Assembly: GCF_003074055.1 (NCBI RefSeq)
Contig: NZ_CP029043.1
Span: forward strand, 2,348,501-2,412,500
Reading direction: 5' to 3'
DNA from: Streptomyces nigra
GTDB taxonomy: Bacteria > Actinomycetota > Actinomycetes > Streptomycetales > Streptomycetaceae
DNA: 64,000 nt
Position 1 is the stretch's first letter, and every line of letters starts with the position of its first letter. A model generated the notes under the pieces. The model did not search any database, was not told the origin of the DNA, and was given only the letters and a program-made list of their open reading frames with translations. Below are positions 42,364 through 42,611 of this stretch, piece after piece. The translations under genes were made by a program, and so were the position numbers.

Positions 42364-42397
42364 CGAAAAACGAAAAATCCCCTCGCACAGGAGGGGA
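42364..42397 (-). terminator. Attenuator terminator in the leuS leader
   Basis: On the minus strand TCCCCTC pairs with GAGGGGA around a six-base loop and is followed by TTTTTCGTTTTT, a strong intrinsic terminator. It lies between the leader peptide stop and the leuS start, 47 bases before the gene, so it would stop transcription before leuS unless disrupted. Confidence 0.85.
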
Positions 42398-42444
42398 CGC
42401 CGCGCCGATGCCGACCATCCGAATCGCCCGGTGGTCGGGAGTGA

Positions 42445-42483
42445 TCAGCGCGGCTCGCTAAGCAGAAGGCGTACGGCACGCAT
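42445..42483 (-). CDS. leuS leader peptide with three consecutive Leu codons
   Basis: A 12-codon ORF reading [12 protein letters not shown], followed by TGA. The three leucines are CTT CTG CTT; CTT is rare in high-GC Streptomyces, which would strengthen ribosome pausing when charged tRNA-Leu is low. No Shine-Dalgarno is visible, but TACCCT (a possible -10) lies six bases before the ATG, so the leader mRNA may be leaderless. The end of this ORF (GCCGCGC) is complementary to GCGCGGC just before the terminator. An arrangement of this type is classical transcription attenuation. Confidence 0.75.
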
Positions 42484-42611
42484 GGCGTCAGGGTACCGCA
42501 GCGCCGGAGCGCGGAGCGACGGGCTTTCGACGGGCGCGCGCGTGAACATCGGCGCCCCCTGCTGCGTACCTGAGGAATGTGAAGACATCGAAAAGCTGAA
42601 CAAGGTTCAAT

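Follow-up and report, generated by a model that had tools for sequence, protein, structure and literature searches.

Leader-peptide attenuators ahead of leuS, the gene for leucyl-tRNA synthetase (LeuRS), are known from Streptomyces. In the sections of their study concerned with such genes, Seliverstov et al. (2005) reported candidate attenuators of the classical kind ahead of the leuS genes in S. avermitilis and S. coelicolor (PMC1262725). In the corresponding part of the 2021 re-annotation of S. lividans TK24, a leader peptide named LeuL2 was placed before leuS, with leaderless transcription seen by RNA-seq and a hairpin followed by a U-stretch (PMC8079986). The leader described here lies in a 64,000-nt stretch of the Streptomyces nigra genome (hereafter, the window) and shares with these elements, as those sections present them, the gene, the kind of leader, a terminator with a U-run and, apparently, leaderless transcription. 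Since the leuS attenuators and LeuL2 are published, the leader itself is not new and belongs to a kind already described in Streptomyces. What is new is its spread, the near-fixed CTY codon, the flush geometry and the purge of codons from leuS; the same sections treat Streptomyces only and mention neither CTY invariance, nor flush geometry, nor leuS depletion (PMC1262725, PMC8079986). In the available main text of the term-seq studies on S. clavuligerus and S. griseus, leuS is not named (PMC8269248, PMC8914203).

Enterobacterial trp, his and leu attenuators resemble the leuS leader in possessing a leader ORF with regulatory codons, an intrinsic terminator and an RNA fold that is set by the position of the ribosome. 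The leuS leader differs from them in that it is apparently leaderless, its upstream helix abuts the terminator, its target is a tRNA synthetase and a competing 2:3 antiterminator is not well supported. Lopatovskaya et al. reportedly also dealt in 2010 with attenuation in operons for amino acids and aminoacyl-tRNAs, and that work may contain further leuS cases. A proteobacterial example of an attenuated tRNA synthetase, cited in the relevant part of the 2005 study, is pheST (PMC1262725). The LEU element before leuA of Actinobacteria, as outlined there, is a pseudoknot without a typical terminator, whereas the leuS element has a helix (P1) and a terminator. T-box riboswitches are likewise sensors of tRNA charging ahead of synthetase genes; the leuS leader, in contrast, has a leader ORF, and no T-box was found in the window at the Rfam gathering thresholds, where the only matches were two tRNAs and no family matched the leader. 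An earlier note on this DNA, made from the letters alone, had set a leucine attenuator before leuS against the T-box control expected in Actinobacteria and had called it notable. The contrast is a fair one and the attenuator is well supported by its conservation; its novelty falls away, Streptomyces leuS attenuators having been predicted since 2005.

Anatomy of the leuS leader

The gene downstream of the leader was identified as leuS by TIGR00396 (leuS_bact; 923.6 bits, cut-off 548.4). The features that the earlier note had listed are all present (Table 1): the 12-codon ORF with CTT CTG CTT, the intrinsic terminator with its U-run between this ORF and leuS, the inner hairpin, and the -10-like TACCCT six bases before the ATG, which had been taken as a hint of leaderless transcription. 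The rarity that the note ascribed to CTT was borne out, this codon making up 1.7% of the 1599 Leu codons in the other ORFs of the window. The leader thus combines a short ORF containing codons for the cognate amino acid with an intrinsic terminator before the gene, and the peptide before leuS, the terminator with its U-run and, judged by the position of the -10-like element, the start site agree with LeuL2. In P1, GCCGCGC, followed by TGAT, pairs with GCGCGGC, preceded by ATCG. The folding energy of the 113-nt leader was −55.6 kcal/mol (z −3.13; 2 of 200 shuffles equally good), better than expected by chance. A scan for consensus promoters found no sigma-70 site at the leader, the -10 element alone being evident. 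The Leu triplet CTNCTNCTT taken alone is unremarkable, with 11 occurrences in the window, and the case therefore depends on context and conservation.

Table 1. Features of the leuS leader in the window.
Feature	Position	Strand	Remarks
-10-like TACCCT	42490..42495	minus	6 nt upstream of leader ATG; putative leaderless promoter
Leader ORF, 12 codons	42445..42483	minus	ATG at 42483; peptide identical to published LeuL2 of S. lividans
Leu codons CTT CTG CTT	42460..42468	minus	third codon, 42462-42460, is the nearly invariant CTY
P1 helix, 5' arm GCCGCGCTGAT	42444..42454	minus	overlaps end of leader ORF and stop codon; covariation
Inner hairpin CCGACCA/TGGTCGG	42411..42438	minus	within P1 spacer
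P1 helix, 3' arm ATCGGCGCGGC	42399..42409	minus	flush on terminator; covariation
Intrinsic terminator hairpin GTCCCCTC-CTGTGC-GAGGGGAT	42377..42398	minus	loop is CTGTGC
Terminator U-runs TTTTTCGTTTTT	42366..42377	minus	includes U-run 42377-42373
leuS, leucyl-tRNA synthetase, 957 aa	39444..42317	minus	TIGR00396

The inner hairpin is missing from homologues with a short P1 spacer, such as L029. Directly before leuS, at 42350-42321 on the minus strand, the window reads GGCAGAGACGATCGATGGAGCTT, which is very similar in most of the Streptomyces loci compared. In S. nigra it contains ATG GAG CTT TGA and is possibly just the ribosome-binding region.

Spread across actinobacteria

With the leader DNA as the query, matches were obtained in 12 of 13 genomes of the same genus (the source genome included) and in one of eight genomes from elsewhere in the order. 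A model (R1) built from 18 of 80 named leuS loci aligned with the window recovered the window itself along with 47 of those 80 loci at E < 1e-6, in each case just upstream of leuS. Its matches within the class fell in 164 of 393 genomes, representing 57 of 122 genera, and the matches listed included 44 genomes of the same genus. R1 was trained on CTT; a covariance model built without any Leu codon (R2) matched 176 of the 393 genomes (58 of 122 genera), a count that includes leaders of other genes, since the R2-only genomes mostly carry citramalate synthase leaders. In a draw from the phylum, R2 matched 32 of 396 genomes, five of them outside the class. Three of these five precede leuS, all within a single genus (L217-L219), and the other two (L220 and L221), with neither leuS nor cimA, were rejected as chance matches.

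Besides Streptomyces, named carriers include Micromonospora, Plantactinospora, Catellatospora, Glycomyces, Blastococcus, Geodermatophilus, Amycolatopsis, Saccharopolyspora and Brachybacterium. No R1 match was found at the named loci of Rhodococcus, Mycobacterium, Corynebacterium, Gordonia, Nocardia and Frankia. The leader precedes both types of LeuRS, the main type being about 60-95% and the divergent type about 40% identical to the LeuRS of the window. One genome (G208) has two leuS genes of different types (L119/L359 and L120/L360), each with its own leader; CTC and CTT make up 0 of 67 Leu codons in its main-type leuS and 17 of 68 in the divergent one.

A nearly invariant codon at a fixed distance from P1

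Codons were counted in 135 leuS leaders, 104 from R1 and the named loci and 31 from R2, with one further leader (L377) kept separate and with L139, whose element is cut at the contig end, and three non-leuS loci excluded. The third Leu codon was CTT in 125 and CTC in 10 of the 135, and CTG in none. With L377, where it is absent, CTY thus occupies this position in 135 of 136 leaders; the earlier note had staked its reading on the Leu codons being conserved along with the terminator, and at the third position they are. The second codon is free (CTC 56, CTG 50, CTT 26, non-Leu 3). The first two codons vary and are not always Leu (L243 and L244), and the single Leu codon of L243 is the third-position CTT. 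In the leuS coding stretches of the 104 loci, CTG is the commonest Leu codon, and CTT accounts for 0.1% of Leu codons in the Streptomyces set and 0.7% in the others. The 32 R2 leuS leaders, which are not independent of the R1 set because 28 of them come from R1-matched genomes, have CTT in 28, CTC in three and no CTY in one. This last leader, L377 (genome G344; R2 E 8e-4), reads VIRGLCCPSGRAG..., and its sole Leu codon is a CTG in another frame with no CTY before P1, a sequence that suggests a rewired or decayed leader copy.

The position of the codon relative to P1 is also kept, the GCCG of P1 beginning five bases past the third Leu codon in 133 of 135 leaders. The leader stop varies, standing four codons after the third Leu in 96 and one codon after it in 21. 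A conserved nascent peptide is unlikely, since what the leaders retain are the Leu codons and their spacing from P1, with the stop free to follow just one codon later. In all 135 leaders, a TANNNT lies 6 nt (101) or 7 nt (34) before an in-frame ATG or GTG, the background being 13 of 1994 ATG/GTG triplets in the upstream regions of the named loci and on the minus strand of the window. This geometry is strong evidence, at the level of sequence, for leaderless transcription, in agreement with the published report.

P1 and the terminator were parsed in 130 leaders (L164, L170, L171, L242 and L260 being unparsed). The gap between them was 0 nt in 73 and 1 nt in 39, and at least five U followed within 8 nt past the terminator stem in 89. 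Covariation of P1 was seen in two alignments, of 19 and 21 sequences. P1 and the terminator had 95.7% and 97.6% paired cells, with 6 and 5 double-change pairs, compared to 43-50% and 40-55% paired in the respective slid controls; in alignment A2, one of five covariation measures (further pair types, 112/500) was not above the shuffles.

Depletion of CTC and CTT in leuS

The leuS gene of the window has 76 Leu codons, comprising 74 CTG, one CTC and one CTT (binomial p 2e-12), while CTC makes up 34.2% and CTT 1.7% of the Leu codons (together 35.9%) in the other ORFs. Depletion through expression-driven codon bias was rejected, since four other genes of the same genome, named by family searches, length and N-terminus, are undepleted (CTC and CTT together 35% in ileS, 44% in valS, 52% in EF-Tu and 49% in EF-G). 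Among the named loci, CTC and CTT accounted for 114 of 2320 leuS Leu codons where the leader is present (47 loci) and 589 of 1741 where it is absent (33 loci); in neighbouring frames, the counts were 638 of 1774 (36%) and 338 of 902 (37%), respectively.

Sixty further regions were hand-picked: 20 combining the leader with the main LeuRS type, 20 combining it with the divergent type, and 20 of the main type taken to lack it. The regions without a leader are all of the main type, so the divergent type has no leader-lacking set of its own. L335, one of the last 20, proved on reading to have a leader and was counted as leader-bearing in the depletion, Leu-box and tree analyses. In leader-bearing regions, CTC and CTT made up 426 of 2946 Leu codons in leuS and 2863 of 6963 in the neighbours; in the regions without a leader, the corresponding counts were 422 of 1488 and 1317 of 3235. 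Strong depletion was found in 25 of 41 leader-bearing regions and 3 of 19 without a leader (Mann-Whitney p 0.0005; p 0.013 on family means). A tree-corrected regression over the 60 regions gave a slope of −1.47 (p 0.0005; p 0.0017 when restricted to the main LeuRS type), and among eight four-codon boxes the depletion was confined to that of Leu.

The depletion of CTC and CTT in leuS therefore often follows the leader, with many exceptions. In 16 of the 41 leader-bearing regions it is not strong, and of the three strongly depleted regions without a leader match, two (L325 and L343) are from one genus and the third is L332. Among the named loci, leuS of Nocardia (L044 and L067) is depleted without a leader match, and L027, L033 and L078 are undepleted with one. 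Family f18 is reversed, its sole leader-bearing genome being undepleted and one of its two genomes without a leader depleted. We found no report of leuS codon depletion in the open-access literature, which is weak evidence that none exists. A bias like that of leuS, with 26 CTG among 27 Leu codons, was also seen in the gene of an MmyB-like HTH regulator at 29-850 of the window.

Proposed mechanism of attenuation

The leader is probably a sensor of charged leucine tRNA running short. We lean, by a modest degree, towards regarding it as a ribosome-mediated transcription attenuator of leuS that senses tRNA-Leu(GAG) and in which antitermination is brought about by P1 lying flush against the terminator. 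Transcription would begin on the leader ATG or immediately beside it, which would let the ribosome load at the 5' end of the RNA and read the 12-codon leader. With ample charged tRNA-Leu, the ribosome would pass the third Leu codon and cover the 5' arm of P1, and the terminator would end transcription. When charged tRNA-Leu(GAG) is short, the ribosome would wait at the third Leu codon or short of it, and P1 would form. Lying immediately next to the terminator base, P1 would hinder completion of the terminator, allowing readthrough into leuS, whose mRNA would be translatable under the shortage because its CUC and CUU codons have been lost.

This scheme was compared with computed folds in which a ribosome masks positions −18 to +12 around the first base of the A-site codon, an assumed footprint. 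The predicted probability of P1 was 0.96 without a ribosome and 0.99, 0.76 and 0.34 with a ribosome at the first, second and third Leu codons, dropping to 0.025 one codon beyond the third and 0.008 at the stop codon. At only 0.34, a stall exactly at the third codon is ambiguous. P1 is lost when the ribosome stands at the stop; provided that the fed state is the one that terminates, P1 would mark the starved, readthrough state. The pairing of GCCGCGC with GCGCGGC that the earlier note had pointed out was substantiated, but this helix does not compete with the terminator for bases: P1 shares none with it, and its action would accordingly consist in sitting flush on the terminator base.

In a classical attenuator, as these elements are termed in the pertinent part of the 2005 study (PMC1262725), P1 would, as in the trp type, be the 1:2 helix, and a ribosome stalled on the Leu codons would mask its 5' arm and leave the 3' arm to pair with the 5' arm and loop of the terminator (2:3), preventing termination. 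The Streptomyces sequences allow this, since the loop CUGUGC offers a partner for GCGCGG in the 3' arm of P1 (−6.5 kcal/mol in the window, −6.7 kcal/mol in L029), and the stall at the third Leu codon that lowers P1 to 0.34 is accompanied by a predicted pre-emption of the terminator 5' arm of 0.34, compared to 0.31 without a ribosome (p 0.02). A 2:3 antiterminator is, however, possible in Streptomyces alone. Over the 130 leaders, the native 2:3 pairing (−6.04 kcal/mol) was weaker than that of swapped (−6.41) or shuffled (−6.89) sequences, and extension of P1 into the terminator paired at expectation (13 leaders identical over 36 nt being merged). In addition, a ribosome at the stop masks P1 more fully than the stalled one, and the predicted pre-emption at the stop (0.39) is higher than in the stalled state; the starved and fed states of the classical scheme therefore lack the needed difference in direction. 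We consider this alternative rather unlikely; the leader looks like an attenuator in which no competing antiterminator is evident.

It is unlikely, too, that CTY is kept for reasons of RNA sequence and that the avoidance of CTC and CTT in leuS is unrelated to the leader. The depleted genes without a leader match and the undepleted genes with one agree with such separate causes, but the second Leu codon is free and the third is never CTG, the commonest Leu codon, and the depletion tracks the leader after tree correction and is confined to the Leu box. That P1 is an RNA polymerase pause hairpin keeping the polymerase in step with the ribosome, with an unseen step deciding on termination, is quite improbable: at most 1 nt separates P1 from the terminator in 112 of 130 leaders, and outside the Streptomyces set P1 is followed by TG at bases 9/10 or 10/11 in 67 of the 97 unique leaders, a spacing about like that at hairpin-stabilised pauses, but this signal is a modest one that overlaps the loop of the terminator, and a pause alone would leave termination undecided.

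The isoacceptor that may be sensed is tRNA-Leu(GAG), which reads CUU and CUC. Among 15 tRNA loci examined of the 71 listed, the tRNA-Leu genes were CAG (one), GAG (two), UAG (one), UAA (one) and CAA (one). With two GAG genes and one CAG gene, it is CAG and not GAG that would bear the heavier load by gene copy. According to the relevant part of the theory of Elf and Ehrenberg (2005), an isoacceptor that is scarce relative to codon use loses its charge first, and attenuators use the codon of the isoacceptor that is uncharged first (PMC1183508). By gene copies alone GAG would not be the weakest, so this theory does not simply predict GAG, a point against the idea in its simplest form. In the part of a study of leucine-starved E. 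coli that concerns codons, the Leu codons that vary strongly are CUU, CUC and CUA (PMC3783181). Across much of the class the putative sensor codon hardly changes, and leuS itself frequently shuns the codons in question, which would make isoacceptor-specific sensing testable through single codon swaps. If the proposal is correct, the purged leuS stays translatable once the switch opens.

Leaders of the same architecture before other genes

leuS lay downstream of 57 of 60 R1 matches and 31 of 45 R2 matches examined. In the 15 genomes matched by R2 alone, 13 matches were citramalate synthase leaders, one preceded an acetolactate synthase-like gene (L375) and one preceded leuS (L377). In total, 60 R2 matches were examined, of which 32 were before leuS and 28 were not, 25 of the latter being before citramalate synthase; the 17 non-leuS loci from the first R1 and R2 sets comprised 15 before citramalate synthase and two chance matches. 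R1 and R2 together matched cimA leaders at 28 loci (L167, L169, L172, L245-L255, L257, L363-L374 and L376), 27 in family f17 and one in f4. These leaders contain Ile, Val and Leu codons within the same P1-terminator architecture as the leuS leaders. The identity of cimA was assigned by a best match to TIGR00977 in the two partial proteins scanned and by tblastn in the others. An assignment of the f17 leaders to ilvB was rejected, the downstream gene being citramalate synthase.

These leaders may represent a class of leaderless actinobacterial attenuators in which a single CUY codon, five bases ahead of a helix flush with the terminator, reads the charging of tRNA-Leu(GAG), leuS is purged of the codons of this isoacceptor, antitermination acts through steric abutment and not through alternative pairing, and the architecture is reused, as before citramalate synthase; we put forward this generalization tentatively. 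The leader at L375, found by R2, has Ile, Leu and Val codons, and its downstream gene resembles acetolactate synthase by eye. Many non-Streptomyces leaders (L034, L035, L048, L121, L133 and others) show a TGYCCG(G)-like motif after the U-run.
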